64,000 nt of DNA, from NCBI RefSeq assembly GCF_004331735.1, contig NZ_SJSO01000009.1, forward strand, positions 124,001 through 188,000, given 5' to 3'. The stretch comes from Pedobacter psychrodurus (lineage in GTDB: Bacteria; Bacteroidota; Bacteroidia; Sphingobacteriales; Sphingobacteriaceae). The notes beneath the pieces were generated by a model. It had not been told where the DNA came from, made no database searches, and saw only the letters and a list, made by a program, of their open reading frames with translations. This document shows positions 5,991 to 25,461 of the stretch, piece after piece. Position 1 is the first letter of the stretch. Each line of letters opens with the position of its first letter. The translations under genes were made by a program, and so were the position numbers.

Positions 5991-6149
5991 TCCATAATCA
6001 ACTCAAAGGGATAAAACAATTTTCGCTAAAGAAATTTATTATAATGTGATCTGCTCACCTATTAAAAGTTCATGACACTGAAATCTACATCATTCCTTAC
6101 TTAAAGTTAATATGGAGTTCATACTTAGCGACTAGTTTTGCTCGCAGTT

Positions 6150-6758
6150 ATGAATCTATCCTCTGACAGTAATTTATTCGAATTGATAAAAGCCAGCAAT
6201 CATTTGGCTTATACTTCAATTATAGATAAATACTGGGAAGAATTGTTCAGACATATCTACCCAAAGATCAAAAATTCGGAAGACGCTAAAGATATTGTTC
6301 AGGATATTTTCCTTAGCCTTTGGAAAAACCGCTTAAACATTTCACTTAATGAAAAAGATAGCCTTGCCCCCTATCTATTTAGGTCGGCCAAATATGCGGT
6401 GATCAATTATTTTTCCAGACCAGGGATAACTATTGCAGATGAGCAGAAATTATCGGCAGCTTTAAATGCACCTTCTGAAACAAAAACGGACGATAAGTTG
6501 CTAATAAATGAGCTCCAAAACTTACTTGAGCGTGAAGTTAACCAACTGCCTGAAAGGTTACAACTACCCTACCGCTTAAGCCGGGAACAGGATCTCTCTA
6601 TCAGGGAAATTGCAAAAAAACTTTCCCTGTCTGAACAGACTGTTAAAAACAATATCAGCGCAGCTTTAAGCGCAATACGTTTTAAGTTAGGAAAATACAA
6701 TTCTGAGGGGACAATTATTTATATCCTGGCATTTGCGGCCTTGCTTCACCACAAATAG
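6150..6758 (+). CDS. ECF RNA polymerase sigma factor
   Basis: A 202-residue sigma-70-family protein from ATG 6150; a TTG at 6138 is less likely. Region 2 is seen in DAKDIVQDIFLSLWKN and region 4 in LPYRLSREQDLSIREIAKKLSLSEQTVKNNISAALSAIR. A short hydrophobic tail (IIYILAFAALLHHK) is common in Bacteroidetes FecI-like sigmas. A FecR anti-sigma gene and an STN-containing SusC follow on the same strand, which is the classical signal-transducing uptake arrangement. It probably drives transcription of the downstream SusCD-phosphodiesterase genes when substrate binds the receptor. Confidence 0.92.
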   Translation: MNLSSDSNLFELIKASNHLAYTSIIDKYWEELFRHIYPKIKNSEDAKDIVQDIFLSLWKNRLNISLNEKDSLAPYLFRSAKYAVINYFSRPGITIADEQKLSAALNAPSETKTDDKLLINELQNLLEREVNQLPERLQLPYRLSREQDLSIREIAKKLSLSEQTVKNNISAALSAIRFKLGKYNSEGTIIYILAFAALLHHK

Positions 6759-6822
6759 TTAACGAAAGCTTAACACACGCTTAAAGTACCCCACTACCTT
6801 AGCTGTGATATCTATAGTAACG

Positions 6823-7797
6823 ATGTCACAACACAAAAATCAAAAAGCATTAAAATCGGTACTTAAAAAATATCTTGAGGAAAAAGCAAACCCACAAGAA
6901 GCCGAGGCTGTAGAAAACTGGTATGAAGAACTGGGCAAAGAATCTGATTCAACTCCATACCTGAACCATGCGGGTGCGATAAATAACTTAAGTAGGTTGA
7001 TCAAAAATAATATACTACAGCAAATCCTGGAACAAAGAAAAACCAAATTGCGGTCGCAGTATATAAAGTATGCAGCCATATTTCTTTTAATGATCAGCGC
7101 AGGGCTTATCATTTTCCAAAGTTATCATGCCAGCAGAATACCTCTAGCGGATATCACTTTTAAATCCAGCCATGAGGCTGCCAAGGAAATAACTTTAAAA
7201 GATGGTTCAATTATACTGCTAAATGTTGGAAGTGAATTAATTGTAGCCCAAGACTTTGGAAAATACGAACGAAATGTATCACTACAAGGTGAAGCATTTT
7301 TTAAAATAGCAAAAGATAAGCGAAAGCCTTTCATCATAAAATCTGGAATCCTCAAAACAACAGTTGTAGGCACCTCATTCAATATTAACGCATATCCTGA
7401 CCAAGATAGAATTAAAATTGCAGTCGCCAGTGGGAAAGTGAGGATCGCTAGAAAAACAGCAGCAGGAGAAGAAGTGCTGGCTATTGGCATGACCAAAGAC
7501 GCTAGTTTAACTTTTGATAAATCCACAGGAAGTGCAGCGCTTAAAACTGAAGATGCTGCACTGATATCTTCATGGAAAGACAATAAACTCTATATCGATA
7601 ATGCGACAATAAGTGAAATCGCAAAGCAGCTTGAGCGATACTATCACCTAAAAGTAGTCTACAACCCAAAAATCGATAAAGGTAAAAGATATACGATCCG
7701 CTTTAACCATGAACCAGCAAACAGGGTAATGGAAATCCTGTCCATACTTACGAAAACAAAATTCACCTACCAAACCAATCAAATCACCATAAAATAA
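6823..7797 (+). CDS. FecR family anti-sigma factor
   Basis: About 324 residues from ATG 6823; an upstream GTG at 6805 is an alternative. The protein has a short cytoplasmic N-terminus, one membrane segment (AAIFLLMISAGLIIF, near residue 85), a periplasmic FecR domain (DGSIILLNVGSELIV, GEAFFKIAKDKRKPFIIKS, VVGTSFNINAY) and a C-terminal DUF4974-like region (ISEIAKQLERYYHLKVVY). It would hold the upstream sigma factor inactive and relay a signal from the STN domain of the adjacent SusC. The gap to the sigma gene is 64 bp; the SusC follows after a two-hairpin leader. Confidence 0.93.
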   Translation: MSQHKNQKALKSVLKKYLEEKANPQEAEAVENWYEELGKESDSTPYLNHAGAINNLSRLIKNNILQQILEQRKTKLRSQYIKYAAIFLLMISAGLIIFQSYHASRIPLADITFKSSHEAAKEITLKDGSIILLNVGSELIVAQDFGKYERNVSLQGEAFFKIAKDKRKPFIIKSGILKTTVVGTSFNINAYPDQDRIKIAVASGKVRIARKTAAGEEVLAIGMTKDASLTFDKSTGSAALKTEDAALISSWKDNKLYIDNATISEIAKQLERYYHLKVVYNPKIDKGKRYTIRFNHEPANRVMEILSILTKTKFTYQTNQITIK

Positions 7798-7829
7798 GGA
7801 TTATGTAACAGGTATAAAAAACAAAAAAA

Positions 7830-7883
7830 GCCGAAAATGCGCTAACACTTTCGGCCAGTTATGAGCATTGAAGCAATGCTCAT
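7830..7883 (+). promoter_or_regulatory. Tandem hairpins between fecR and susC
   Basis: Two stem-loops lie in the 128-bp gap. The first is GCCGAAA/TTTCGGC (7830-7836 with 7849-7855). The second is a 10-bp perfect stem, ATGAGCATTG/CAATGCTCAT, with a 3-nt loop (7861-7883). Neither is followed by a long U-tract. They may separate low expression of sigma/fecR from high expression of susCD, by attenuation or mRNA stabilisation. Confidence 0.5.
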
Positions 7884-7925
7884 CATTTCCAATGATCGCT
7901 TAAAAACATTAAAAACTATTCAAAT

Positions 7926-10900
7926 ATGCAAAAATATTACCTGGGTTGCAAACACCCGTTATGGTCACTTTTTAATCTAAAAATGAAGCTAACAATAGCC
8001 CTGCTTTTTCTTTCAAATGCATTGCTCTTCGCGGGACCAACTGCCGGACAGTCTATGAATGATGTCAAAATAGATCTCTCAGCAAAAGATCTTTCTTTGA
8101 GAAAAGTACTGGATCTGATCGAGAAAAGAACTCCATTTGTAATTGGTTATGAAAATAACAGTTCAATCAACACAAAGACTTTCAACATTGAAGCAAGGGG
8201 AAAATCCGTAGCTGAAGTTCTCAGTCAATTAATGAAAAATTCGCCTGTTGAGATTCTCCAGATCAGCGATAAATACATCCTTATTAATACGAAAAAATTA
8301 CTTCCTCCAATGTATGTTTCGGGTACAATTACCGATAAACGCACGGGCGAGAGTTTGCCAGGGGTCAGTATCAGGGTAAAAGGTGGCGCTGCAATCACCC
8401 AGACGGATAGTAAAGGAAATTACAAATTAACGGTTCCATCGGATCAGGAAGATGTTGTGATTGAAGCCAGGTCAATTGGTTTCAAAACCCAGGAATTCAA
8501 AGTTTCAAGAAATTCTACAAACCTCACCATCAACATTTACTTGGAAGAAGACCTTTTAGGTTTAGACGAGATTGTTGTAACCGGACAGGGAATTGATGTG
8601 AGCAAAAGAAGGCTTTCTTCAAACGTGGTGAGCATTTCTGAGAAAGACATCAGGGATATCCCTGCTTCCAGGATAGACCAGCTATTGCAATCAAAATTAC
8701 CTAATGCGCAGATCAGGTTAACTGGTGGGCAGGCGGGGGCAACATCTATCATCCGCTCAAGAGGGGTTAATTCTGCCTTCATCAGCTCTACCCCTATTAT
8801 TTATGTGGATGGGGTTAGAATGGATAATTTGAATACCAGAGCTGCTTTAGGTGGTGGCAGTGCAACAGGTGCGGCAATTAGCTCTATTTCTGATATCCCG
8901 ATGGATAATATTGAAAAAATTGAGTTTGTTAACGGTGGTGCTGCCACAACATTATATGGCTCTGATGCTGCTAATGGGGTTATCCAAATCATTACAAAAA
9001 AAGGTGGTGCAGATAAAACGGACATCACTTTAGAAACCCAATTAGGCATTGAAACTCCAACAACAGATTTTCTTCATTTTAAACGTACTAAAGATTTATT
9101 GATGCAGAATGGACTTTACCAAAAGCATAATATTGCCTTGAATGGAGGTGATGGTAAGTTCGGATACAGCTTTTCGGGAGGTTACCAAAACAGTACAGGT
9201 ACGCAAATTTACGATCAGAACAGCAACAGGAGAATTGATCTGAGAACTGGTTTGAGAGCATCTTTAGGCACCAAGGTAACCTACGAAAGTTCATTCAGCT
9301 ACATTAACAACAAATACAAAAGAAGCCGGAACGGAAACCAGGGCGGCTATACTGGTTTATGGTTTGCAGAAAGTGGCGCATCTTCCATTACGGGGCCAAG
9401 ATTTAAAAGTGATCTCGATGCGATGAGCGATGATGAATTCGCTGCCATTACCGCCTTTGCAGATAAAGCGGAAGCATTGCAGGATAATGGAATCACCATT
9501 AACAGGTTCCAGACTTCACAGGTTTTCAAGTATCAGCCTTTAAAAAACCTGACTTTCAAGGCTACAGGGGGCGTTGATTACCGTGCCCAACGGCAAAACA
9601 TCATTACAACCAATGAATACCTTTCGCATACCACCAACACCTCGATTACCAATCAGGGAAGTATTGATAATTTTGACAGAAATTATCTTGGCTTGACCTT
9701 TGAATTTAATGGTCAATACGAGGCAAAAGTTGGTGATTTCTCTTTCATCACCACTGCAGGCGGCCAGCTTTTCAGAAATGAAGATCACCAGATCCAGTAC
9801 ACTGGAACAAACATCAGGGACGGAGCCCAAACCATTAATATTGCTGCTACCCGTACGGGCGATGAGTATTATTCAGCAGTAACCAGTTATGGTATGTATC
9901 TGCAGGAAAATGCTGGTTATAAAAACAAGTTGTTTCTGGATTTAGGTTTACGTGGTGATGGTAACTCAGCTTTTGGAAAAAATATTGGCATTCAGTACTA
10001 CCCAAAGGTTGGGCTTTCCTACATCCCAAGTGCAGAAAGCTATTTCCAGTCGATTTCAAAAGTTGTATCGTCTGCTAAAATCCGCGGAAACTATGGTATT
10101 GCTGGTAATTTCCCTACTCCTTTCGCTAACGAGCGTACAATCTCCTTTATTGGTTTTAACGGAGAGCAGGCCGCATCATTCGGCCAGGCCGGAAATAATG
10201 ACCTGAAGCCTGAGAAAACAACAACTATTGAAGCAGGTCTTGATCTTGGTTTCTTAAATGACCGGATTATCCTTTCAGCAGGATTCTACCATTCCATCAC
10301 GAAAGATGCATTATTTGTAGTTCCACCTGCCCCATCATCAGGACAGACCAGTCAGTTACAGAATACCGGAAAGATTTTAAACCGGGGGCTGGAATTCAAC
10401 ACGGTCTTGACCCCAATTAAAACGACCAATACCAGTCTTAGATTCAACCTGTCTGTGAATACGTTATACAACAAGGTGGTGAGTTCTGGCGGTGCTGCTC
10501 CATTTAACATCAACGGTTTCAGTGCAAGGACGGTGCAAACAGTTGTACAGGAAGGTTACCCAATTGGTTTTATCAGGGGGAATTATGGCGAATTTAATGC
10601 ACAGGGACTTCTGGTAAGTACCACTGCGCAGCAAAACCTGGGAACAACTGTACCAAATCTTTTTGGCAGTATGGGCATGAATTTCCAGTACAGATCATTC
10701 AATTTATTTGCTAATGCCGATTACCAGAAAGGTGCAAACGCCGTGTCATTTGACAGGCAATTCAGGTTTAATTATGGTACCTCGACAGAGGGAATTCCGC
10801 AAGCTGAAATTGATAAAAGCGGAAGAACCAGATGGCTGGATGTAACCAATATGTTCGTAGAAAAAACCGATTACATCAAGATCAGAACCATTGGGATAGG

Positions 10901-11120
10901 TTATAACTTTAAGCCAGCAGCTTGGAGCAAAACGGTCAAAAGCATCAATATTGGTTTTTCTGTTGTAAACCCACTCAACTTTGCCAGTTCAAGTTTTGAT
11001 CCGGAAACCACAATTAGCGGAAGTGCACAGGGTCAGAATGGGGCCACTACCGGTGGTATTTCTTATTCTACATATTCTGCTCCCAGACAGTTTGTAGGCT
11101 CACTAAGAATAAATTTTTAA
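7926..11120 (+). CDS. SusC/RagA-type TonB-dependent receptor with STN domain
   Basis: A 1064-residue outer-membrane transporter. After a signal peptide (MKLTIALLFLSNALLFAGP; an internal ATG at 7983 is an alternative start) come an STN domain (about 50-105), a carboxypeptidase-regulatory-like domain (VSGTITDKRTGESLPGVSI, about 130-205), the plug (LDEIVVTGQGIDVS onward, with IYVDGVRMD and YGSDAANGVIQIITKKG) and a beta-barrel ending in RQFVGSLRINF. The STN domain shows that it signals to the neighbouring FecR/sigma pair. It would import a substrate captured by the SusD lipoprotein encoded 10 bp downstream. The phosphodiesterase gene that follows suggests a phosphodiester or its product. Confidence 0.94.
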   Translation: MQKYYLGCKHPLWSLFNLKMKLTIALLFLSNALLFAGPTAGQSMNDVKIDLSAKDLSLRKVLDLIEKRTPFVIGYENNSSINTKTFNIEARGKSVAEVLSQLMKNSPVEILQISDKYILINTKKLLPPMYVSGTITDKRTGESLPGVSIRVKGGAAITQTDSKGNYKLTVPSDQEDVVIEARSIGFKTQEFKVSRNSTNLTINIYLEEDLLGLDEIVVTGQGIDVSKRRLSSNVVSISEKDIRDIPASRIDQLLQSKLPNAQIRLTGGQAGATSIIRSRGVNSAFISSTPIIYVDGVRMDNLNTRAALGGGSATGAAISSISDIPMDNIEKIEFVNGGAATTLYGSDAANGVIQIITKKGGADKTDITLETQLGIETPTTDFLHFKRTKDLLMQNGLYQKHNIALNGGDGKFGYSFSGGYQNSTGTQIYDQNSNRRIDLRTGLRASLGTKVTYESSFSYINNKYKRSRNGNQGGYTGLWFAESGASSITGPRFKSDLDAMSDDEFAAITAFADKAEALQDNGITINRFQTSQVFKYQPLKNLTFKATGGVDYRAQRQNIITTNEYLSHTTNTSITNQGSIDNFDRNYLGLTFEFNGQYEAKVGDFSFITTAGGQLFRNEDHQIQYTGTNIRDGAQTINIAATRTGDEYYSAVTSYGMYLQENAGYKNKLFLDLGLRGDGNSAFGKNIGIQYYPKVGLSYIPSAESYFQSISKVVSSAKIRGNYGIAGNFPTPFANERTISFIGFNGEQAASFGQAGNNDLKPEKTTTIEAGLDLGFLNDRIILSAGFYHSITKDALFVVPPAPSSGQTSQLQNTGKILNRGLEFNTVLTPIKTTNTSLRFNLSVNTLYNKVVSSGGAAPFNINGFSARTVQTVVQEGYPIGFIRGNYGEFNAQGLLVSTTAQQNLGTTVPNLFGSMGMNFQYRSFNLFANADYQKGANAVSFDRQFRFNYGTSTEGIPQAEIDKSGRTRWLDVTNMFVEKTDYIKIRTIGIGYNFKPAAWSKTVKSINIGFSVVNPLNFASSSFDPETTISGSAQGQNGATTGGISYSTYSAPRQFVGSLRINF

Positions 11121-11130
11121 AAATAAACAG

Positions 11131-12555
11131 ATGAAAACATATATAAAGAATATTTTTGCTGCAAGCATAACATGCATCCTGCTAGCGGGCTGCGCAAAAG
11201 ATAACCCCAACATTACCGATGAGGTTTATTTGACTACAACTAATGTTTCCACTACCTGGCTAACGGGATTAAAACGCCAAATGGCGCTAACAATGAACCA
11301 GGTCATCGTAAATACAGAGTTGGTATCAGATAATTATTTCAATAACAGGACGCTGAGCAATAAAGTATTTGATATTCCTCAGATTGATAATTTTGATCTG
11401 GACGTTAACAATATCCAGTCTGCAATTCAACGTTTAAGAGAAATGTCTGAATACGGCTTAACCACTGTGGTAAATGCGGATAAATCAACTACTGCTATAC
11501 AGAAAGCAGAAATGTATTTCATAAATGCTTATGCAAATGTGCTAAGTGGTGAATTGTTTACAGGCCTCCCAGGTGCCGCTAAAGGGGTCGTACTTTCCCC
11601 AGCGCAGCATTATGCTATAGCAATTACGGCCCTCGACCAGGCGATTGCATTACAAACCAATGCGAATGAAAGACTAGCTTATACCCTGTTAAAAGCCAGG
11701 GTATATTATGATCTGGGCGACGCAGTACAAGCTAGAACATTTGCAACAGCAGTGATGGCTACCCCATTGTTACTGAAGCAACAGGCTTTTGACGGACAAA
11801 ATGCAACTTCTAATGATTTCCAGACTTATCTTTTCTCATCAACGACGAATGAGTTTGCCCCACTTCCCCGCCTGGACTTCCTGGATCCGAAATATTATAA
11901 TACAGGAACAATTGCGCTGGATCAGAAGCCAGTAAGTTACCTTAAAGGTGAAGAAGCTTATCTAATTTTAGCAGAAATTCAGGTTTCCACCGGTGATTTA
12001 GCAGGAACTAAAACAACCCTAAAAAACCTTTTAACGGATGTTATTGCTAAAAGACCTGTAGTTTCTTTGAGCGATGTGAAGGAAACCAGGAACGGTGGTA
12101 ACCGAAACGATTATCCTTTAACGGCAGTTAAAGTAAAGTTTGATGAGACGGATGTTGAACGTTCAGGTTATGTACTAGACCGGAAAACAGCCAATATCAA
12201 TATTTCCACCGTTTCCGGTACGAAGGTTACCGCAACGGACATTGATGCGGCGACTACCCAGGACGCGCTATTGTATTTAGTTTATAGAATGAGACAGGAA
12301 ATTTTCATTTCTGAAGGCAGACGAATGAGCGATTTAGGCATCAAATTCCCTGTTTCTCAAACCGAACAATTGAATAATACTAATGTAAAACCCTCGGACT
12401 TGATTGCTCAAATCCCATCATTCATCCCGAAAAACCGGGGAATGGATGATTTCTCCAATAATGCGGTAAGCGGCGTGGTTACCATAAAATACGATATGAA
12501 CAAGGTCCTGATCAACAATAAAACAGCAAAAGAAATTTTTCCATTTATTAATTAA
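11131..12555 (+). CDS. SusD-like outer-membrane substrate-binding lipoprotein
   Basis: A 474-residue protein with a lipoprotein signal (CILLAGC, Cys at about residue 21). It is divergent from classic SusD but helical and TPR-like (AQHYAIAITALDQAIALQ, LLKARVYYDLGDAVQARTFA), with the late motif FISEGRRMSDLGIKFPVS corresponding to the usual RRxxLxRFG region. SusD partners form a lid on SusC and bind substrate. It starts 10 bp after susC and ends 7 bp before the phosphodiesterase gene, so all three are co-transcribed. Confidence 0.88.
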   Translation: MKTYIKNIFAASITCILLAGCAKDNPNITDEVYLTTTNVSTTWLTGLKRQMALTMNQVIVNTELVSDNYFNNRTLSNKVFDIPQIDNFDLDVNNIQSAIQRLREMSEYGLTTVVNADKSTTAIQKAEMYFINAYANVLSGELFTGLPGAAKGVVLSPAQHYAIAITALDQAIALQTNANERLAYTLLKARVYYDLGDAVQARTFATAVMATPLLLKQQAFDGQNATSNDFQTYLFSSTTNEFAPLPRLDFLDPKYYNTGTIALDQKPVSYLKGEEAYLILAEIQVSTGDLAGTKTTLKNLLTDVIAKRPVVSLSDVKETRNGGNRNDYPLTAVKVKFDETDVERSGYVLDRKTANINISTVSGTKVTATDIDAATTQDALLYLVYRMRQEIFISEGRRMSDLGIKFPVSQTEQLNNTNVKPSDLIAQIPSFIPKNRGMDDFSNNAVSGVVTIKYDMNKVLINNKTAKEIFPFIN

Positions 12556-12562
12556 TAAAGAG

Positions 12563-13906
12563 ATGAAAATGAATCGTTTAAAAAAAATAATAACCCTAAA
12601 TATCCTGGTAGCCTTTACCATCATCGCACAGGCACAAACGGCCAAATATGTTGTTCTGGTTAGTATCGACGGTTTTCGCCCGGATTTTTACCTGGACAAA
12701 AGCTGGCCGACCCCCAATTTACAGCAGTTGGTTGCCAGCGGGTCTTATGCCAAGGGTGTTCGCTGCATTTTCCCAAGCGTTACTTACCCCTCTCACACGA
12801 CTTTGATTACCGGTACCTTCCCTGCTAAACATGGCATTACTTACAACACTATGCCAAATGTTGAAAATAAGTATGAATGGACGACTGATGCAAAAAAAAT
12901 TAAGGCAGAAACACTTTGGCAGGCTGCAAGAAAAAAGGGACTAAAATCTGCCTCCGTTTCCTGGCCAATATCAGTCGGCGCGGAGATCGACTATAACCTA
13001 CCGGAAATCTGGTCAGAAACTAATATGGCCGATCGTAAAAGTGCAATCTCCGCACTCGCTACACCAAAAGGTTTACTGGAAGAGATGGAAAAGTATGCCA
13101 TTGGTGATGTTGATATGGAGGATTTAAACCTGAGCTCTTTGGCTATGGATGAAAACAACAGCCGCATGGCTGCCTACATCTTGCGAAAATATAAGCCAAA
13201 TCTGTTGAGCATACATATTGCAGGCGTTGATGGCGCAGAACATAAGGAAGGAAGATCCGGGGATGGGGTAAGCAAAGCCGTTGCCTCGGCTGATCATGCA
13301 GTGATGAATTTAATGGATGCCATTAAAAAAGCCGGCATACAAGACAGCACAACCATAATAATTACGGGTGATCACGGTTTTGTTAATGTTGAAAAAACAC
13401 TTTCGCCAAATGTTTGGTTAACCGAAATGGGTATTGATAGTAAAGTGGGGAAAGAAGAACCTGCGGCTAAGTTCCAATCTGCCGGTGGTTCCGCCTTTTT
13501 CCATCTTAAGAACAGTAAAGATTTAGCGCTACTTAAAAAAGTCCGCCAGAAACTAGCTGATTTGCCTGCTGAATATAAACTGATGTTCAGAATCGTAGAG
13601 CGTGATGAGCTCAATAAAATCGGAGCTGATCCACATGCCAGCTTTGCGCTGGCTGCAGCTAACGGGGTATATATTCAGGATGCTGCAACAGGCCCGGTTT
13701 CAGTTCCTAAAAAAGGAGGTGCCCACGGCTATTTTCCAGATAGTCCGGAAATACGTACCGGTTTTATTATCGCCGGAGCCGGAATAAAAAACGGTGTTGT
13801 CCTGGAATCTATTAACCTGGAAGATGTGGCACCGACTGTTGCCAGATTACTTAGCTTTTCCTTGATTAATTCTGATGGAAGAGCAGTAACACAATTTCTA
13901 AAATAA
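12563..13906 (+). CDS. Ectonucleotide pyrophosphatase/phosphodiesterase-like enzyme
   Basis: A 447-residue alkaline-phosphatase-superfamily enzyme with a Sec signal peptide ending near AQAQ. Metal and nucleophile motifs are visible: VVLVSIDGFRPDF (Asp), FPSVTYPSHTTLITG (nucleophile Thr), HIAGVDGAEH (Asp, His), ITGDHGF (Asp, His) and a late His in KKGGAHGYFP. Members hydrolyse nucleotide or lipid-headgroup phosphodiesters in the periplasm or at the surface. Its position 7 bp after SusD makes it the degradative partner of this uptake system. A rho-independent terminator follows. Nucleotides and phospholipid headgroups are both possible substrates. Confidence 0.92.
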   Translation: MKMNRLKKIITLNILVAFTIIAQAQTAKYVVLVSIDGFRPDFYLDKSWPTPNLQQLVASGSYAKGVRCIFPSVTYPSHTTLITGTFPAKHGITYNTMPNVENKYEWTTDAKKIKAETLWQAARKKGLKSASVSWPISVGAEIDYNLPEIWSETNMADRKSAISALATPKGLLEEMEKYAIGDVDMEDLNLSSLAMDENNSRMAAYILRKYKPNLLSIHIAGVDGAEHKEGRSGDGVSKAVASADHAVMNLMDAIKKAGIQDSTTIIITGDHGFVNVEKTLSPNVWLTEMGIDSKVGKEEPAAKFQSAGGSAFFHLKNSKDLALLKKVRQKLADLPAEYKLMFRIVERDELNKIGADPHASFALAAANGVYIQDAATGPVSVPKKGGAHGYFPDSPEIRTGFIIAGAGIKNGVVLESINLEDVAPTVARLLSFSLINSDGRAVTQFLK

Positions 13907-13926
13907 GCATGGACTTGGAACCTGTC

Positions 13927-13963
13927 AAAAGCCCCATTCATAATGATTGGGGCTTTTGTTTTT
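13927..13963 (+). terminator. Rho-independent terminator after phosphodiesterase operon
   Basis: The stem AAAAGCCCCA (13927-13936) pairs with TGGGGCTTTT (13948-13957) and is followed by GTTTTTT. It lies 20 bp after the phosphodiesterase stop codon. Confidence 0.9.
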
Positions 13964-14042
13964 TGAGATTAATCCTCCAACTGGAAAAACCACAACCTAT
14001 TGCCCCCTCTTCACCAGAAGCTAATTATTGATTACTTTTGCT

Positions 14043-14099
14043 AACCAGTTTGTTTCACGGCCTTCTGAAATAGGCGGAACGGAGTCAAACAAATTGGTT
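14043..14099. repeat. Imperfect 57-bp inverted repeat
   Basis: AACCAGTTTGTTTCAC at 14043-14058 is the near-complement of the stretch ending TCAAACAAATTGGTT at 14099 (about 14 of 16 positions), with a 23-nt spacer. It lies in the noncoding stretch 13964-14427, in which nothing else was recognised. It could be a small mobile-repeat relic or a structured RNA. Confidence 0.35.
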
Positions 14100-14427
14100 T
14101 ATCCACTAAAAAATAATCCACTACATAAGCAATGGATTTATGACCTACAACTTCATCCTTTTAAACTTTCCGCTATATAAAACAGTCGTTATTGGTCTTG
14201 ATTGATCGCTCAAACTTGTATTGGATAATCTGCCTTGAGTGTATATTTCAGTGAAAGTGAGCCCTTTGTTCCGAGCCAAACTAAACAAACACAAAATACT
14301 GGCAAACAGATAGTTAAATCCTTATATTCAACTCCATTTGACTCCACTGAAATCAGTTTTAGCGCACCAATGTATCCTGCGCGGCAAGGAGCACGTCCCA
14401 ATTCTTAAAAAAAATGAGCATTTTAGC

Positions 14428-15207
14428 ATGATAAAAAAACCAGACATGAAAGCAAAGCTTATCGTATTTCTTGCTACCCTTCTTCTAACCTCGGTAAAAA
14501 CCTTTGCAGGCTGGTACAATACCTATAACTATGCGGGATCCATCGGCAGATATCCGGTTACCTTATCGTTCCAGTTGAAAGAAGGCTATTTTGGAGAAGC
14601 TGCAAAAAAAAACTACAATGTTATCGGCGTTTACAAATACGATAAATTTAATAATCCCATAAGGCTAGAAGGAGTCTTTAACCAAAATACCCATGAGATT
14701 AAAATCTATGAATATGGGATTAACGATAAGGTTTATGCCACTTTTCACCTCGTTTTTTCACCTCAAAAACTCACAGGCATCTGGAACAGCGGTAAAAGCA
14801 GACTGAATGTAGCACTTCAACTTGTAAATAGATTAAGCGATCTATCTGATGAGGAGTTTGATAATATCGAAATCCTTCAGTTCCCATCTTTGGTTAATTA
14901 CTACTTTATTGGTGTTTATGCCAAAAAAAGCAAATCTACCGAAGCACACATGCGTGCATTAAAGATCATCAATAAAGAAAACGGCAAAATCATTCAAACG
15001 CTTAATTTTGATAACATCGAAACACCCACAGGTAATCTGATGACCATTATCTATGATAACATTACAACAGGCAAAGACAATAATTTTCTGATATCCAATC
15101 AGATCGGCAGAGTCGGCGGATACCTCACTGTGGGTTTTAACCGAAAAAACAAACGGTTTATCTTAAATCCGGAACCCGTTGCAGAAGGCGTAAACGGCAA
15201 TAAATAA
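14428..15207 (+). CDS. Hypothetical exported protein
   Basis: About 259 residues from ATG 14428; ATG 14446 gives a cleaner signal peptide (MKAKLIVFLATLLLTSVKTFAG), and an even longer frame begins at 14338. The mature part is rich in Tyr, Asn and beta-prone stretches (VTLSFQLKEGYFGEA, NPIRLEGVFNQNTHEIKIYEY, ATFHLVFSPQKLTGIW) with no catalytic motif I recognise. It stands alone between two SusCD loci with long noncoding flanks. It is probably a periplasmic protein of unknown function. Confidence 0.65.
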   Translation: MIKKPDMKAKLIVFLATLLLTSVKTFAGWYNTYNYAGSIGRYPVTLSFQLKEGYFGEAAKKNYNVIGVYKYDKFNNPIRLEGVFNQNTHEIKIYEYGINDKVYATFHLVFSPQKLTGIWNSGKSRLNVALQLVNRLSDLSDEEFDNIEILQFPSLVNYYFIGVYAKKSKSTEAHMRALKIINKENGKIIQTLNFDNIETPTGNLMTIIYDNITTGKDNNFLISNQIGRVGGYLTVGFNRKNKRFILNPEPVAEGVNGNK

Positions 15208-15380
15208 ACTGAATGTTTATGATCTTGGCTAGCGCTTGCCCTGGCTGAATTCCGTTTCTATGAATGCAGTTAATTGGTTTGAAATCAATTACAGTTACAG
15301 CTATAAAAAATCACCACTGGAAATTATGTTTTTTAATTAACTTCCAATGATGATTATAAATTACCTTTTTTAAGTCAAGT

Positions 15381-15600
15381 CTAATTGTGGAGGTTTTTAG
15401 CCCTGAGGTATTCGATAAGTTCTTTTGGACGGTCCGTTTGAATCAGGTTTGCTTTATGGTTAATCAGCCAGCCCCAGCTTTCATCCTTCTTATTTTCTTC
15501 CACCGCCATGTCATCATCATGTCCCCCATTTTGTTCTGGCCGAAAGTTGCCCTATCTTGTAACGGATCATTATGAAATTGGTACTTTACCATAAGGATTA
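15381..15600 (-). pseudogene. Glycerophosphodiester phosphodiesterase C-terminal remnant
   Basis: Minus-strand translation yields the family's C-terminal signature, SWGWLINHKANLIQTDRP and then LIEYLRAKNLHN before a TAG stop at 15381-15383. The preceding piece (MVKYQFHNDPLQDRATFGQ) is in another frame; the switch falls at a G-run near 15525, consistent with loss of one G. The N-terminal TIM-barrel with the catalytic residues is absent, and a stop precedes the piece. GDPD enzymes split glycerophosphodiesters into glycerol-3-phosphate and alcohols. It is a decayed member of the surrounding phosphodiester theme. No useful sequence was recognised in 15601-15950. Confidence 0.75.
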
Positions 15601-15954
15601 AATTGACCGGATTAAAAGACTATGATAAACCAATATTATTTTCAGCAAAATTACGGCAGCTATGTTAACTATATATTAAATTTAGCTGCATTTACATCAC
15701 CTGGTGCATCTTAGAAACTATAAGCTCCACCTTTATGAATGATTGTTCATGGCTTACTCTCCTTGGGATCACCAACGGTTTCAGTATTTTTTTCTGAAAA
15801 GAATTTATTGTTCTAACCTTGCCAGGACTAGTGAAGTTTATCGGTATCAGCCAAAATCGTGTTAAGTTAATTCTTAATTTATAGGCTATTTATCACCAAT
15901 ACTTAACATTATTTTTAAATAACCTTTCAATTCTTAATAATTTCATAATTCTAA

Positions 15955-15989
15955 TTGACAAAATCCCTAATCGGGTTAAGGCATCTTTG
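15955..15989 (+). promoter_or_regulatory. Candidate Bacteroidetes housekeeping promoter for susC
   Basis: TTG at 15955-15957 and CATCTTTG at 15982-15989 resemble the -33 TTG and -7 TAnnTTTG elements of Bacteroidetes primary-sigma promoters, with 24 bp between them (slightly long). This would give a leader of about 65 nt before the ATG at 16061. The receiving SusC lacks an STN domain, so ordinary sigma control is plausible. Confidence 0.4.
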
Positions 15990-16060
15990 TGGGAAATTCA
16001 CAGGGCATAGAACAATCGTTTGTTTCTGTGAATAATCCAAAAAACCATAACCAATCATTC

Positions 16061-19048
16061 ATGAAACAAAACTACGAAAAGACTTACTTGTCTTTGATTA
16101 GCAAATGGCAATGTCTCGTTGCAATTCTGCTTTTCTTTTCATTAAATGTTAACGCTCAGGGTAGTAAAACGGTAACGGGTAAAGTTGTCGATGAAACCAA
16201 TCAGCCATTACCAGGCGTAACAGTTAGAATAAAAGGCAGTAATTTAGGAACATCAACTGATACATATGGCGTTTATACCATTCAGGCAAAACCATCCGAT
16301 AGACTTACATTTTCTCTACTTGGAAGTTTAACCAAAGAAATTTCAGTTGATAATCAAAACAAAATTAATGTAACCCTGATGCCAGATAACCAAACGTTAA
16401 AAGATGTTGTGGTTATTGGTTACGGAACTGCTAACAAAAAAGATTTAACAGGTGCGGTAACTTCTGTAAAGTCAGAAGAATTTAATCAGGGCGTTTTGGT
16501 TAATCCAGCACAACTTTTACAAGGTAAAGTTGCGGGTTTAAACGTTACTAAAAGTGGCGATCCGAATGCTAAACCCTCTACTATTTTACGTGGTCCATCT
16601 ACTTTACGTGAAGGTGCTGCGCAAGAGCCGTTTTACGTTATCGATGGTGTTCCGGGAGCTTCAATTGATTTATTAGCGCCGGCTGATATAGAAAATATCG
16701 ACATTTTAAAAGATGCATCTTCAACTGCCATTTATGGTTCAAGAGCTGCAAACGGCGTAATTATTGTGACTACTAAACGTTCTAAAAGCGGCCAATCTCG
16801 CCTAAATTATAGCGGCTATGCTGCCGTGGAGAAAGTTTCTAAAAAATATGATATGCTTTCAGCTCCTGAGTTGAGACAATATCTTGCAGATAACAAGCAA
16901 ATTTTAAACCCTGTAGATGATGACGGTTCGGACACAAACTGGCAATCACTTTTGGAAAGAACAGGTTATTCTCAAAATCACAATCTTTCTTACGGCGGCG
17001 CTGGTCAAACATCAGATTATGGTGCAAGTGTAAATTATCTTGACAATAAAGGAATTCTTAAAAATACATCGCTAAAAAGAACAATTGTTCGTGCTTTCCT
17101 TAACGAGAAGTTTTTTAACGATAGGCTTAAACTGGGTTTAACCATAACCAACAGTAATTCAAAAAGTTCTGATGTATATCAATCACAAGCGCTTCCCAAT
17201 ATGCTTTTCTATTTGCCAACGGTAAATCCTTTTAATGCTGATGGTAGCTATAAAGAAAACTACAACCGTACCGGGAGTGGAACAAGAAATCCATTATCAA
17301 TTGTTGATAATAACGTAATCGATAACTTGAATAACAAAACGTTGATTAATGGTATGGCGCAGGTAAACATCATAGATGGATTAAAGTTTACAGCAAGTGT
17401 TTCTTCTCAAAGAGACCAGAATAATTACAGCACTTATCTGAACAGTCAATCGGGATTAGCCAGAGGCGTAAACGGACAAGCGCAAAAAATCGATGTTTTA
17501 AACAAAAGCCAGGTTTTGGAAGGTTATTTTAACTATGATAAAACTTTTGGAAAACATAGTTTAAAATTGCTTGGCGGTTATTCTTGGCAAGAAGATAGAA
17601 CCAATGATGGTTTTGGCGTAACTACACAAAACTTTTCAAATGATAATTTAGGTTATAACAATCTGTTTTTGTCTAATCCAAGTTTGCTCTCTCAAATCGC
17701 CTTTAACAATGCGCCTATATCTACTTTAAGGTTAATTTCATATTACGGCAGGGTTCAGTACAACTACAATGAGAAATATTTATTCCAGGCATCGTTAAGA
17801 GATGATGGCTCTTCTGCATTCGGAAAAAATAACCGTTGGGGTCTATTCCCTGCTGTTTCTGCTGGCTGGAGAATTATTAGCGAAGATTTTATGCAATCTG
17901 TTCCGGTTATTAGTGATTTAAAACTTCGTGCTGGTTATGGCGTTTCAGGTAATAGTTTAGGTTTCGATGCCTTCTCTTCATTATTGATTTATGGAACACT
18001 TCCTGGTAGCAATAAATTTTTAAACAACGGTTCTATCAGCAATGCAATTGGTCCGGTTAGAAACCCAAATCCAGATTTAAAATGGGAAAGTACAGCAACT
18101 ACCAACATAGGGTTAGATTTTGGTTTATTTAATGATAGGATTACAGGTTCGTTAGATTTTTACGTCAAACAAACTTCAGATTTGATTTACGATCGTTACG
18201 AAGTTTCTACAACGCAGTTTTTCTTACCAACCATTACAGCAAATGTTGGTAAAATTAAAAACACAGGTATAGAGTTTTCATTAAACGCTACTGTTTTCAA
18301 AACAGATAGTTTCAGGTGGACAACTTCGCCAAATATTGCGCACAATAAAAACGTTGTTGAAACCTTATCTGATGATTTCTATAAAATTGCAGCCATTCAA
18401 ACTGCTCAGCTTGGCGGTAAAGGCCAGTCGGGCAATTTCAGTCAGTTAATTCAGCCAGGTTATGCACTAGGTACTTTCAACCTTTGGAATTATGCAGGTA
18501 AAAATGCTGCAGGTGTAAGTACATATATCAATGCTGCTGGTCAAACTATTGCCACACAGCCTCTAACAACAGATGCAAAAATTGCGGGCAATGCCCAGCC
18601 TAAATTAATTTACGGATGGGTAAATAGTTTCAGCTACAAAAACTGGGATTTTAACTTTTTAGTTAGAGGAGTTTTGGGTAACAAGATTTTGAATGCCACA
18701 AAGGCATCTTTAAATAATCCTGCAGATGCAAAACTTCAGAATATTCCAACATTTACTTTGGGCGAATCTTTCAGCGACATTAATGCTTATCTGATTTCAG
18801 ATCGTTTTCTAGAAAGTGGTTCTTACCTGCGTTTGGATAACGCTACGCTTGGCTACACACTAAAACCTAAAACACCAGCTATCAAAGCCATTAGGTTATA
18901 TGTTACGGCAAATAACCTGTTTGTAATCACAAAATACAGTGGTTTAGACCCAGAAATCAACATCGGTGGACTAACGCCAGGAATTGATAACAACAATTAT
19001 TACCCAAAAACAAGAACCTTCAGTTTCGGTGTAAGTGCATCATTCTAA
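16061..19048 (+). CDS. SusC/RagA-type TonB-dependent receptor (no STN domain)
   Basis: 996 residues from ATG 16061; the frame extends to a GTG at 15989, but the signal peptide starts at MKQNYEKTYLSLISKWQCLV and ends near VNAQ. Then come a carboxypeptidase-regulatory-like domain (GKVVDETNQPLPGVTVRIKG), the plug (DVVVIGYGTANKKDLTGAV, with YVIDGVPG and YGSRAANGVIIVTTKR) and the barrel ending FSFGVSASF. The absence of an STN domain implies no sigma/FecR signalling, and none lies beside it. It heads a four-gene same-strand set with SusD, a PI-PLC-like enzyme and a PHP phosphoesterase. Confidence 0.94.
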   Translation: MKQNYEKTYLSLISKWQCLVAILLFFSLNVNAQGSKTVTGKVVDETNQPLPGVTVRIKGSNLGTSTDTYGVYTIQAKPSDRLTFSLLGSLTKEISVDNQNKINVTLMPDNQTLKDVVVIGYGTANKKDLTGAVTSVKSEEFNQGVLVNPAQLLQGKVAGLNVTKSGDPNAKPSTILRGPSTLREGAAQEPFYVIDGVPGASIDLLAPADIENIDILKDASSTAIYGSRAANGVIIVTTKRSKSGQSRLNYSGYAAVEKVSKKYDMLSAPELRQYLADNKQILNPVDDDGSDTNWQSLLERTGYSQNHNLSYGGAGQTSDYGASVNYLDNKGILKNTSLKRTIVRAFLNEKFFNDRLKLGLTITNSNSKSSDVYQSQALPNMLFYLPTVNPFNADGSYKENYNRTGSGTRNPLSIVDNNVIDNLNNKTLINGMAQVNIIDGLKFTASVSSQRDQNNYSTYLNSQSGLARGVNGQAQKIDVLNKSQVLEGYFNYDKTFGKHSLKLLGGYSWQEDRTNDGFGVTTQNFSNDNLGYNNLFLSNPSLLSQIAFNNAPISTLRLISYYGRVQYNYNEKYLFQASLRDDGSSAFGKNNRWGLFPAVSAGWRIISEDFMQSVPVISDLKLRAGYGVSGNSLGFDAFSSLLIYGTLPGSNKFLNNGSISNAIGPVRNPNPDLKWESTATTNIGLDFGLFNDRITGSLDFYVKQTSDLIYDRYEVSTTQFFLPTITANVGKIKNTGIEFSLNATVFKTDSFRWTTSPNIAHNKNVVETLSDDFYKIAAIQTAQLGGKGQSGNFSQLIQPGYALGTFNLWNYAGKNAAGVSTYINAAGQTIATQPLTTDAKIAGNAQPKLIYGWVNSFSYKNWDFNFLVRGVLGNKILNATKASLNNPADAKLQNIPTFTLGESFSDINAYLISDRFLESGSYLRLDNATLGYTLKPKTPAIKAIRLYVTANNLFVITKYSGLDPEINIGGLTPGIDNNNYYPKTRTFSFGVSASF

Positions 19049-19060
19049 AAAAAAATAAAG

Positions 19061-20650
19061 ATGAAAAAGATTATAATCCTGTTTAATATCCTTACTTGCC
19101 TGATGGTTTTAGCATCATGCAGTAAGCTCGATGTCGATGTAGAATCGCAATATGTTAAAGATAATTTTCCATACACCAATTCAGATTACGCGGCACTTTA
19201 TGGCACTATGTATTCTAACCTTTCTTCTCAATATGGTGTTCCATATTGGAGAATGCAAGAGCTTTCTACAGATGCCGCAATTATTCCCGCTCGCGATGGA
19301 AATTTTGATGATGGTGGTCAATACCGCCAGCTTCATTACCATACCTGGACAATTGATCATCCCAATGTGAGAGATATCTGGCAGTGGGGATTTGGTGGTA
19401 TCAATAACTGCAACCGCTTAATTAACCTAACCAATGAATCTTCAATTTCAGCTACACAAAAAAGTAGCAGTTTAGCTGAAGTAAAAGCAATGAGGGCCTT
19501 ATACTATTACTTTATGATGGATTTATACGGTAATGTACCAATTATCGATACTTTCCCGGTAAGTTCGCTTCCTGGAAACCAAACCAGAGATAAAGTTTTT
19601 GAATTTATTGAGAAGGAACTTTTAGCCGTTATCCCGCAATTACCCATAAAAGATAATAATAACCGTGTATTGGTTTATGGCCGACCAACCCAGGCAATGG
19701 CTTATGCTTTATTAGAGAAAATGTACTTAAATGCTGAGGTATATACTGGGAAGCCTAGATATGCAGATGCGGTAATTATGGCCGATAATATTCTGAAAAA
19801 CACCAACTACGCTTTAGATAACAAATATTCAGATATTTTTGATGTAAACAACGGCCCTCAGATTAATGAAACCATATTTGCTGTTCCTTACGATCAGCAG
19901 ATTCCAGGCAACCAGATCACAAGATTTGGTTTTTATCCTGCATTAGCAGCAGCGTATGGTATTAATGTGGGTTTTAGTATTGCAATGAGTACAACGCCAG
20001 AATATTATAACCGTTTTAATCTGAACAATGATATTCGTAACAGTTTCTGGTTAATCGGAAAACAATATGCGCCAGATGCCAATCGCAAACCTGATTTAAC
20101 TAAACCTGTACTTGTTGCAGGAACAACTACACAAATCGAAATCACTCCAGATCTGATTCTTAAACCAGGTAAGCCAATGGATTTGGGTAATACGGTTGCA
20201 GATCAGGCTAAAGGTGTTCGATCAGTGAAATACTGGCCAGATGTAAATGCAATTCAAGCCACACGTTTAAATGGCAACGATATGCCTGTTTTACGTTTAG
20301 CTGATGTAATGTTAATGAAAGCAGAAGCAATTTTAAGGGGTGCAGCCGCTACAACTGTTAATAGCGAATTACAAACACCACTGGTACTTGTAAATAAAAT
20401 AAGAGCCCGTGCTGGTGCTAGTTTAGCCAGTTCGGTAGATTTGAGCACTTTACTTGATGAAAGAGCCCGTGAATTTAGCTGGGAAGCGTGGAGAAGAAAT
20501 GACTTAATCCGTTTCGGACAATTTGAAACAGAGTATCCATTACCAAACGATGTACTTTTCATGAATAAGGATGTAACCAGAAGAATTTATCCTATTCCAG
20601 CAAACGAGTTAAAACTTAATGTAAACCTGAAACAAAACCCGGGGTATTAA
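19061..20650 (+). CDS. RagB/SusD family nutrient uptake lipoprotein
   Basis: A 529-residue protein with a lipoprotein signal (LTCLMVLASC, Cys at about 20). Typical SusD features are present: WQWGFGGINNCNRLI, AEVKAMRALYYYFMMDLYGNVPI, LADVMLMKAEAIL and the late EFSWEAWRRNDLIRFGQFE, ending with LNVNLKQNPGY. It would cap the SusC barrel encoded 12 bp upstream and bind the substrate. The next gene, a PI-PLC-like enzyme, begins 15 bp after its stop. Confidence 0.95.
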   Translation: MKKIIILFNILTCLMVLASCSKLDVDVESQYVKDNFPYTNSDYAALYGTMYSNLSSQYGVPYWRMQELSTDAAIIPARDGNFDDGGQYRQLHYHTWTIDHPNVRDIWQWGFGGINNCNRLINLTNESSISATQKSSSLAEVKAMRALYYYFMMDLYGNVPIIDTFPVSSLPGNQTRDKVFEFIEKELLAVIPQLPIKDNNNRVLVYGRPTQAMAYALLEKMYLNAEVYTGKPRYADAVIMADNILKNTNYALDNKYSDIFDVNNGPQINETIFAVPYDQQIPGNQITRFGFYPALAAAYGINVGFSIAMSTTPEYYNRFNLNNDIRNSFWLIGKQYAPDANRKPDLTKPVLVAGTTTQIEITPDLILKPGKPMDLGNTVADQAKGVRSVKYWPDVNAIQATRLNGNDMPVLRLADVMLMKAEAILRGAAATTVNSELQTPLVLVNKIRARAGASLASSVDLSTLLDERAREFSWEAWRRNDLIRFGQFETEYPLPNDVLFMNKDVTRRIYPIPANELKLNVNLKQNPGY

Positions 20651-20665
20651 CAATCAAAAAGGTGT

Positions 20666-21733
20666 ATGAGAATCATCAGTTGCATTAGCCTATTGCTGGT
20701 ATTGCCAGCAATAGCGTTCATTACGATTAAAGAAGATCCAACTATCAATCAGATTCAGGTTATTGGTTCGCACAACAGCTACAAACAGGCCATCGATCCG
20801 GCATTATTTAGCATATTCAAGAAAACAGATTCAGTATCTGCCAGTAAGATAGATTATGAACATATTTCTATACCAGCGCAGTTGAATTTGGGATTAAGAA
20901 ATCTGGAGATTGATGTTTACGCCGATTCTGCTGGTGGTCGTTACGCGCATCCAAAAGGTTTAGATTGGGCAAAGGATCAGCCTGCTTTTGATGCTGCTGG
21001 AGAAATGAAAAAACCTGGCTTTAAGGTTTTACACATCCCCGAACTCGATTTTAGAAGTTCTGTACCAACTTTTATAGAAGCTTTAAAAGTACTTCGTACC
21101 TGGTCAGAGGCTCATCCAGATCATACGCCGGTTTTTATTACGCTTGAGGCTAAAGATGATTCGATAAAAAGACCCGGATTTACATCGCCAGAATTATTTA
21201 CGCCAAAGGTTTTTGATAAATTGGATAATGTTATTTTAGAGAATTTAGGTAAAGAACATATCATTCTACCTGACGATGTAAGAGGTAAATACAGCTCCCT
21301 TGAAGACGCAGTTCTTCATCAGAATTGGCCGAAATTAAGCCAAGCTAAAGGTAAATTTATTTTTGTGCTGGATGCTACAGGTAAAAAAAGAGCTACCTAT
21401 ATTCAAAATCATCCATCGTTGAAAGGTCGTGTAATGTTTGCGAATTCTGATCCTAGTACGCTCGAAGCTGCCTTTATGATTAGAAATAATCCGCAGGATA
21501 AACAGATTCCTGAACTGGTTAAAAAAGGTTACATCATTAGAACAAGAGCCGATAACGATACGCAACAGGCCCGTAAAAATGACAAGAGTGATTTCGATGC
21601 AGCTTGTAATTCTGGCGCACAGGTTATTACAACAGATTATTATCAAAAAAGCACACATTTTAATTCCGAATACTTTGTCAGCTTTGCTGATGGCAAATAC
21701 TTCAGAGCTAATCCCTTATTTAAAACCAGATAG
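20666..21733 (+). CDS. Phosphatidylinositol-specific phospholipase C1-like protein
   Basis: A 355-residue exported protein with an N-terminal hydrophobic signal (SCISLLLVLPAIAF). The PI-PLC X-like active-site pattern is visible: IQVIGSHNSYK (first catalytic His), LRNLEIDVYADSAG (acidic metal ligands), FKVLHIPELDF (second His) and FITLEAKDD. Such enzymes cleave phosphoinositides or related glycerophosphodiesters. The bacterial family is poorly characterised, so the true substrate may differ. It sits directly after SusD, implying action on material at the cell surface. Read-through to the PHP gene 104 bp later is likely. Confidence 0.85.
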   Translation: MRIISCISLLLVLPAIAFITIKEDPTINQIQVIGSHNSYKQAIDPALFSIFKKTDSVSASKIDYEHISIPAQLNLGLRNLEIDVYADSAGGRYAHPKGLDWAKDQPAFDAAGEMKKPGFKVLHIPELDFRSSVPTFIEALKVLRTWSEAHPDHTPVFITLEAKDDSIKRPGFTSPELFTPKVFDKLDNVILENLGKEHIILPDDVRGKYSSLEDAVLHQNWPKLSQAKGKFIFVLDATGKKRATYIQNHPSLKGRVMFANSDPSTLEAAFMIRNNPQDKQIPELVKKGYIIRTRADNDTQQARKNDKSDFDAACNSGAQVITTDYYQKSTHFNSEYFVSFADGKYFRANPLFKTR

Positions 21734-21837
21734 CTCCCTTTGCAAGCAAAAGTGATGCTATTGCGAAATGGGCTGATGATTCGAAAAAAGCTAAGAATAT
21801 CATCAGGTGTTTTTTATTAAAGGACAAATTTTAAAAA

Positions 21838-23004
21838 ATGATTAAATATAAAATAGCAATTCCAACGATATTTATCGTTTTTCTTTTAAGCATATATACC
21901 TTAAAAGCTCAACAAGACAACACTAACCCTGTTATTCTTTCCAAAGGGTTTTGGTTAAAAGGCGATTTGCATGTGCATTCTCGGCATAGTACAGAATCAT
22001 CAAATAATTCAATAGCAAAAATCATTAATTTCTCTAAATCTGTTAAAATGGATTATGTGTGTATTACAGATCACGATAATCATGTAGACGGAGATGTGGA
22101 ACACCATACCTGGGCAGATCCAGAATTTAAATCAGACTCGCTTTTGCTATTGTATGGTGCAGAATGGACCACAACCAGAGGACATGGAAATGTATTTTCT
22201 GATAAACCGTATAATCATCAACGGTTATTTAATGTTCGCGACGAACGTGATGTTAATATTGGTAAAGTGAAGAAATCACTCGCTATTCACCTATCGGCAA
22301 ACCATCCAAGCGGAAAAGACAATTTTGGTTTTTCTTATGATTTGGTTCAATCGATTGAAGTTTGGAATTCGTCAGTCTGGCCAAAAAATGCAAATGCAAT
22401 TATGATTTGGGATGATATGCTTTCATCAGGAAGGATGATGACGGGAAGAGGAGGAAGCGATGCACATCACGGTGTGCCCACAGGATCTGAAAAGCCAGGT
22501 GCAAATACTTATCAGGCCGAATATAATTATGTTGGTACGCCAACAACATGGGTTTTTGCAAAGGAAAAAAGTTTAACTGCAATTGTTGATGCGCTAACCC
22601 ACGGAAAGGTTTCAGTGAGTTCAAATCCCTTTGCGCCAAGAGTAGAATTTTATGCTGATGCAAATGAAGATGGTAAATTTGAAATGATGATGGGGGATAA
22701 TGCAATTTCGAAAGGTAAACCCGTGAAATTTTTGGTTCAGTTAAGTGGTAATACTTTGCCAGATGTAGATTACACCATTACTATCATTAAAAACGGAAAG
22801 AAATTGGATACTTACCATGCTAAAGGCGAAACGCCCATGGTTCAATTTGAGGATGCACCAGAAACAAACGGTAGAACCTATTATCGGGTAACTATTGAAG
22901 GAATAAATACACCTTATCCACAAGTGCCAAAATCTATGGCTTTAAGTGAAAATATGGTTGGTTTATCAAATCCAATTTATTTTAACTTCGACCCAAAATT
23001 TTAG
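21838..23004 (+). CDS. Exported PHP-domain (CehA/McbA-like) phosphoesterase
   Basis: A 388-residue protein with a Sec signal (KIAIPTIFIVFLLSIYTLKAQ). The PHP metal-binding motifs are clear: WLKGDLHVHSRHSTES at the start, YVCITDHDNHVDGD, AIHLSANHPSG and GRGGSDAHHGVP. A C-terminal beta-rich domain (about 260-380) follows. CehA/McbA-type PHP proteins act as metal-dependent phosphoesterases or hydrolases; an exported form could release phosphate or process PI-PLC products. It ends the operon and a strong terminator follows 40 bp later. Confidence 0.88.
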   Translation: MIKYKIAIPTIFIVFLLSIYTLKAQQDNTNPVILSKGFWLKGDLHVHSRHSTESSNNSIAKIINFSKSVKMDYVCITDHDNHVDGDVEHHTWADPEFKSDSLLLLYGAEWTTTRGHGNVFSDKPYNHQRLFNVRDERDVNIGKVKKSLAIHLSANHPSGKDNFGFSYDLVQSIEVWNSSVWPKNANAIMIWDDMLSSGRMMTGRGGSDAHHGVPTGSEKPGANTYQAEYNYVGTPTTWVFAKEKSLTAIVDALTHGKVSVSSNPFAPRVEFYADANEDGKFEMMMGDNAISKGKPVKFLVQLSGNTLPDVDYTITIIKNGKKLDTYHAKGETPMVQFEDAPETNGRTYYRVTIEGINTPYPQVPKSMALSENMVGLSNPIYFNFDPKF

Positions 23005-25385: not shown

Positions 25386-25461
25386 GGGTATTAAATTATT
25401 TTATCTCGGAAGGGTATTCCCAGCGTCAAAACTAAACATTTAAACCAGAATGCAAAAAGAA

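Follow-up and report, generated by a model that had tools for sequence, protein, structure and literature searches.

Two gene clusters built around SusC-SusD (SusCD) pairs were found on the + strand at 6138-23004 of a 64,000-nucleotide stretch of DNA from the soil bacterium Pedobacter psychrodurus (contig NZ_SJSO01000009.1; the whole stretch is referred to as the window). Both clusters are probably SusCD-based phosphate-ester uptake systems. System 1 spans 6138-13906 and system 2 spans 16061-23004, and the SusCD pairs of the two systems are unrelated to each other. SusCD pairs located beside phosphoesterases have been described by Lidbury and colleagues as the phosphate utilisation systems (PUS) of Flavobacterium, which are induced by low inorganic phosphate (Pi) (PMC8115612). 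Our reading is supported by the low-Pi induction of one of these, the PUSI of F. johnsoniae, in which PusCD1 occurs together with a PF16670 enzyme (PMC8115612), and by two further operons of the window genome itself, one PUSII-like and the other of the order SusC-SusD-PF00149-PF01663.

An earlier note on this DNA had placed an NPP-type phosphodiesterase within 7 bp of the first SusCD pair, and an enzyme resembling phosphoinositide phospholipase C (PI-PLC) and an exported PHP phosphoesterase behind the second. All of these genes are present, and, again in agreement with that note, the gene content of the window and its family matches include no glycoside hydrolase (carbohydrate-active enzyme, CAZyme) within the operon of either system. 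The lack of a Pfam match for SusD1, the FecI/FecR pair of system 1 (6138-7797) and a relic of phoA in system 2 were absent from that note.

System 1: a conserved cassette with a variable enzyme

The following genes make up system 1:

6138-6758, + strand: FecI-like ECF (extracytoplasmic function) sigma factor (PF08281, PF04542; likely start ATG 6150)
6805-7797, + strand: FecR-like anti-sigma factor (PF04773, PF16344), position conserved across loci
7926-11120, + strand: SusC1, TonB-dependent transporter (TIGR04056, 400 bits)
11131-12555, + strand: SusD1, divergent lipoprotein of SusD type by fold comparison (lipobox Cys21)
12563-13906, + strand: exported NPP-type phosphodiesterase (PF01663, E 1e-52), starting 7 bp past the SusD1 stop

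Relatives of SusD1 were found in 28 of the 401 genomes sampled from the order and in 17 of 146 genomes of the genus, with three strong cases from other parts of the class. Thirty SusC1-SusD1 (SusCD1) loci, one per genome, were read. The SusD1 gene lies directly after a SusC gene in all of them, and FecI and FecR precede the pair in nearly all, being not evident in L047 and L184. The slot behind SusD1 is occupied by a phosphohydrolase in 29 of the 30 loci, namely an NPP (13 loci), a calcineurin-like enzyme of MetallophosN-MetallophosC architecture (11) or an HD-like protein (five). This hydrolase is nearly always the sole enzyme of the cassette and usually starts about 10 bp after SusD1. The only exception is L184 (G482, 5838-12182), where a distant SusCD1-like pair (SusD 35% identical) is followed by a Porin_10 gene. 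At 7859-9275 of another locus (L183, G487), the SusD1 homologue is split into two frames before an intact NPP.

Three label changes on the SusD1 tree suffice to account for all four slot states. Since the calcineurin-like loci form one clade, the HD-like loci form another and the NPP loci are paraphyletic, NPP was likely the ancestral slot enzyme and would on about two occasions have given way to a different phosphohydrolase. Both unrelated replacements being phosphohydrolases, SusCD1 would carry a phosphate ester, and we judge this to be the best evidence for such a cargo.

SusD1 does not match the SusD families of Pfam and NCBIfam (PF07980, PF14322, PF12771) even at an E-value of 5, and its identity was therefore checked by predicted fold. 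The AlphaFold2 model has a pTM of 0.82, and the top 48 matches in a fold search of the PDB are all SusD-type proteins or related lipoproteins that bind glycans at the cell surface (best match: E 8e-6, probability 1.00, TM about 0.5). The lipobox Cys21 is invariant among the SusD1 orthologues. As judged from this model, SusD1 is a divergent SusD family that is overlooked by the Pfam models.

The nucleophile Thr and the two-metal ligand motifs are all present in the window NPP (SIDG, SVTYPSHT, GVDGAEH, GDHGF and GAHGY). These features and the fold family are shared with bacterial NPPs such as that of Xanthomonas (2gsn), its nearest solved structure, but unlike the Xanthomonas enzyme the window NPP sits inside a SusCD cassette. 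It is closer to the nucleotide-type NPPs (2gsn, ENPP3) than to the choline-type ENPP6, which is a hint and no more to its substrate. At the other end of the cassette, residues 1-143 of SusC1 form an STN/FecR_C-like extension that falls below the Pfam cut-offs (PF16344, E 6e-4; PF07660 (STN), E 0.0036, 17.5 bits against a cut-off of 28.4); the FecI and FecR genes upstream are clear.

System 1 could alternatively carry another nutrient, such as a cofactor in phosphorylated or nucleotide-linked form, a sugar nucleotide or a siderophore-like compound, with the hydrolase merely trimming this cargo instead of scavenging phosphorus. Signalling of the FecI-FecR and STN type is classical for ferric citrate and is used by glycan systems too, and we count this in favour of trimming, since the cassette would be controlled by its cargo instead of by an evident Pi control. 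Slot enzymes of three different folds and the likeness of the window enzyme to nucleotide-type NPPs fit trimming as well. On the other hand, FecI-FecR is also carried by the PUSI-type loci and the PUSII-like operon described below, whose published counterparts are low-Pi induced (PMC8115612). On balance, we consider trimming to be somewhat unlikely.

System 2: a PI-PLC-linked SusCD lineage

System 2 and its upstream region contain the following features:

15903-15992, + strand: conserved promoter-region block (alignment of 10 Pedobacter upstream regions)
16061-19048, + strand: SusC2 (TIGR04056, 748 bits; TIGR04057); the reading frame opens at GTG 15989 and ATG 16061 is preferred
19061-20650, + strand: SusD2 of the PI-PLC-linked SusD clade (PF07980, PF14322)
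20666-21733, + strand: exported phosphoinositide phospholipase C of the Ca2+-dependent type (PI-PLC-C1; PF16670, E 1e-126)
21736-21807, + strand: phoA relic, codons about 18-40, fused to sequence like that 3' of the phoA of Pedobacter sp. Bi126
21838-23004, + strand: exported CehA/McbA-type PHP metallohydrolase (NF038032, E 5e-39; PF02811)

The preferred start of SusC2 yields a protein of 995 amino acids, the same as in relatives, and SusC2 is 96% identical in Pedobacter sp. Bi126, the nearest named relative for this system. The PI-PLC matches the Streptomyces PI-PLC1 (3h4w) with an E-value of 2e-11. No relative of solved structure was found by sequence for the PHP enzyme, whose counterpart at the same position in Bi126 is 89% identical.

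Conservation was assessed in 80 named PI-PLC loci. A SusD2 homologue lies directly upstream on the same strand in 59 of them (with at least 50% identity in 56), and the full SusC-SusD-PI-PLC order with short gaps was found in 57 loci belonging to several families, with Pedobacter, Mucilaginibacter, Chitinophaga and Hymenobacter among the genera. The window genome contains at least 76 SusD_3 genes in 6.09 Mb as well as 14 PF01663 matches, so that some pairs are bound to meet randomly, and the two SusCD pairs could in principle be ordinary glycan transporters with phosphoesterases as chance neighbours. From 76 SusD_3 genes and one gene per about 1.2 kb, however, only about 1.5% of genes are expected to have a SusD directly upstream, compared with the 59 of 80 observed. 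With the linkage kept across families in both systems (57/80 and 29/30 loci), and with two slot replacements in system 1 that both brought in phosphohydrolases, chance neighbourhood is very improbable. The gene-order search proposed in the earlier note thus found the SusCD-phosphodiesterase linkage conserved, and not the lack of conservation that the note had set against its own proposal. Its description of the two systems as neighbouring is correct for the window, where they are adjacent. A functional meaning of this adjacency is not evident and was rejected as no SusCD1 was found in any of the 80 PI-PLC loci.

All 14 PI-PLC-linked SusDs form a single clade against 43 other SusDs of the window genome (SH-aLRT 100). 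The tree was made by a quick method from 567 columns, and the 14 rows represent Sphingobacteriaceae, Chitinophagaceae, Hymenobacteraceae, Spirosomataceae and the PUSI-type genomes. A first tree with few controls had given separate lineages for SusD2 and the PUSI-type SusDs; these were dropped in favour of the single clade obtained with the 43 controls.

Accessory genes vary among the relatives of system 2 and include PHP, PhoA (PF00245), PF00149 (in Mucilaginibacter) and the glycoside hydrolase family GH92. The gene order in Bi126 and most other close Pedobacter is PI-PLC, PhoA, PHP. In the window, PFASKSDAIAKWADDSKKAKNII aligns to the PhoA of Bi126 with a score of 64, the best of 500 shuffles reaching 42. 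This remnant between PI-PLC and PHP indicates that the window strain has lost the phoA of the operon. We also considered a mosaic origin of the PI-PLC, raised since the identity to other Pedobacter is about 92% for SusD2 but only about 72% for the PI-PLC. This was rejected because the window and Bi126 sequences both stay inside the Pedobacter group in the PI-PLC tree, consistent with vertical inheritance in Pedobacter, and because in every pair the PI-PLC is the faster of the genes; a replacement is unneeded.

The conserved block upstream of susC2 contains TTAACATT- and TTTAACAATT-like elements followed by a ATCTTTGTGG (-7-like) element, with a variant of the second element in the window. The TTAACAAT sequence occurs in 23 of 58 susC2 upstream regions and in two of 128 controls, the sequences being related to one another.

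Observations that weigh against phosphate-ester uptake

Several observations weigh against the reading of both clusters as phosphate-ester uptake systems. In system 1, the HD-like slot protein is weakly assigned (NCBIfam PRK10119 phosphohydrolase, E 2e-4, in one member; Pfam HD below cut-off) and its predicted structure is poor (pLDDT 61) and unfit for a fold search. In system 2, 21 of the 80 PI-PLCs, all of the same close group, are not beside a recognised SusD. Nor do PF16670 proteins of lower identity (33-48%) lie beside SusCD, so the linkage is confined to one PI-PLC group. No Pho box or link to PhoB could be assigned from the conserved susC2 upstream block, and as the PF12849 match meant to serve as pstS control is not a clear pstS, no assignment to a Pi regulon was made.

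The last of these points is a GH92 alpha-mannosidase found in the system 2 operon of eight relatives from at least four genera (L116, L113, L114, L125, L144, L152, L157 and L172; at least 69% identity to the L116 enzyme). It lies immediately after the PI-PLC in seven of the loci and further downstream in L172; in Chitinophaga and Mucilaginibacter, the GH92 gene (PF07971, E 1e-145) is 9-30 bp behind the PI-PLC, and loci of Pedobacter and Hymenobacter have it as well. Several of the eight loci encode, after GH92, a protein without a family that is about 175-190 amino acids long. Given the mannosidase, the cargo of system 2 may carry mannose and may be a glycosylated phosphoinositide. The earlier claim that the two systems are dedicated to phosphodiesters rather than polysaccharides is therefore too strong for system 2, even though conserved linkage, and in system 1 also slot replacement, points to phosphate esters for both pairs.

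System 2 might accordingly serve the uptake of glycophosphoinositides, such as remnants of glycosylphosphatidylinositol (GPI) anchors or glycosyl-inositol-phosphates, of which this Pedobacter would keep a reduced version; the PI-PLC would remove the lipid or glycerol part, and a mannosidase and phosphatases would complete the breakdown. Besides the eight loci with GH92, it fits this proposal that glycans are the normal cargo of SusC. Yet GH92 is absent from the operon of the window and its nearest relatives and from the vicinity of most other PI-PLC loci, and the PUSI of F. johnsoniae (Fjoh_4168-4173), for which no CAZyme is described, responds to Pi (PMC8115612). Glycophosphoinositide uptake is unlikely in our view. 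We hold as quite unlikely a joint reading in which the PI-PLC-linked SusCD clade is an importer dedicated to glycosylated phosphoinositides and SusCD1 is a cargo-sensing importer of a single phosphodiester whose hydrolase was twice replaced by an unrelated fold. Under this joint reading the phosphoinositide cargo would consist of fragments of GPI anchors or of glycosyl-inositol-phosphates from fungi, plants or protists, and GH92, PI-PLC, PHP and the phosphatases would be interchangeable parts of a single degradation line.

Proposed working of phosphate-ester uptake

From the gene content we infer how phosphate-ester uptake could proceed, including its site of cleavage, substrates, order of reactions and regulation. 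In both systems the SusD lid would capture a molecule bearing a phosphate ester, the TonB-driven SusC barrel would import it, and the hydrolase encoded directly behind SusD, which its signal sequence would export, would cut the phosphodiester in the periplasm, with a further phosphatase then releasing Pi. In system 1, FecI-FecR together with the N-terminal extension of SusC1 would detect the cargo at the barrel and switch the cassette on, and the NPP would hydrolyse the imported diester. In system 2, the PI-PLC would cleave a phosphoinositide-type diester, for example glycerophosphoinositol or a related headgroup, after which PHP, with PhoA or PF00149 in relatives, would take off the remaining phosphate to give Pi and a polyol. 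A glycerophosphoinositol-like phosphoinositide headgroup is the likely cargo of system 2. PHP-family enzymes can be phosphodiesterases, as two reports indicate (PMC11656708, PMC5460133).

Comparison with known systems

In both systems SusCD is co-localised with phosphodiesterases or monoesterases instead of CAZymes, as in a PUS. In F. johnsoniae PUSI, PusCD1 (Fjoh_4168/9) occurs with two phosphodiesterases (Fjoh_4172/3), one of which is a PF16670 PI-PLC (PMC8115612). System 2 likewise has, besides SusCD, a PF16670 PI-PLC and another exported phosphoesterase, and is the only one of the two in which a PF16670 PI-PLC lies beside a SusCD of the same SusD lineage; the second enzyme is PHP instead of a PF00149/CpdA-type enzyme. 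Two loci (L185 and L188) contain SusD, SusC, FecR, FecI and then a PI-PLC and a metallophosphoesterase-like gene. They appear to be of PUSI type by gene content and order. SusD2 falls within the same SusD clade as these loci but in a different sub-clade (about 27% identity; SusC about 33%). Moreover, the PUSI-type loci carry FecI-FecR and a CpdA-like metallophosphoesterase, partly divergent from SusCD, whereas system 2 lacks FecI-FecR and has PHP in the same operon, plus PhoA in relatives. By its gene content system 2 is of the PUS kind, and the single SusD clade places it in a wider lineage of SusDs linked to PI-PLC.

The enzyme combination, regarded as distinctive in the earlier note, proved less so for system 2 because SusCD with a PF16670 PI-PLC has already been published as the PUSI type (PMC8115612), and because PHP, PhoA, PF00149 and GH92 replace one another as accessories among the relatives. 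For the system 1 cassette no published description was found in the part of the literature covered, the six PusCDs of PMC8115612 not having been compared individually.

PUSII consists of PusCD2 with a PhoA-GDPD_2 fusion (Fjoh_3249-3251; PMC8115612). The window systems resemble it in having SusCD followed by a phosphatase, but neither has the PhoA-GDPD_2 fusion. A very similar operon is located elsewhere in the window genome (L209; G000 C16:70000-86000), with FecI-FecR-SusC-SusD-PhoA/GDPD_2 and PF00149. The same genome also holds the SusC-SusD-PF00149-PF01663 operon (L057) and three paralogous operons (L203, L204 and L205; G000 C4, C13 and C17), each of which combines two SusCD pairs with several lipoproteins and with a PF01663 protein about 570-590 amino acids long.

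The transport architecture is that of classical polysaccharide utilisation loci, and glycan loci, like system 1, commonly have FecI-FecR control. Unlike those loci, neither window operon contains a CAZyme; among the relatives of system 2, the eight with GH92 do.

Neighbouring genes

Four further features lie between or downstream of the two systems:

14338-15207, + strand: open reading frame without family match, between the systems and belonging to neither
15384-15530, - strand: 3' relic of a DUF4996/GDPD-type gene (PF16387 positions 75-102 of 102, E 2e-10, broken frame)
23198-24388, - strand: AGE-type epimerase gene, adjoining the GH130 gene
24396-25400, - strand: GH130 phosphorylase gene

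The PF16387 remnant would be another decayed phosphodiesterase-type gene, as DUF4996 is found with phosphodiesterases of the GDPD (glycerophosphodiester phosphodiesterase) type. The GH130 and epimerase genes are convergent to system 2, and the N-terminal homology of the GH130 gene seems to extend upstream beyond an in-frame stop, indicating either a pseudogene or a sequencing error.

Implications

As far as we have checked, the Pfam-invisible SusD family and its one-enzyme cassette with replaced hydrolases are new, as are the grouping of the PI-PLC-linked SusDs in one clade and the finding that the window strain has lost phoA. SusCD systems are almost reflexively interpreted as polysaccharide systems; here, two separate SusD families would have been linked to the hydrolysis of phosphate esters for long spans of evolution. 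The replaceable enzyme slot of system 1 offers a natural experiment, as SusCD1 should carry whichever substrate the NPP, the calcineurin-like enzyme and the HD-like protein have in common. With two SusD families linked to phosphate esters and one of them invisible to the Pfam models, the capture of organic phosphorus is probably under-annotated in Bacteroidota of soils and plants.

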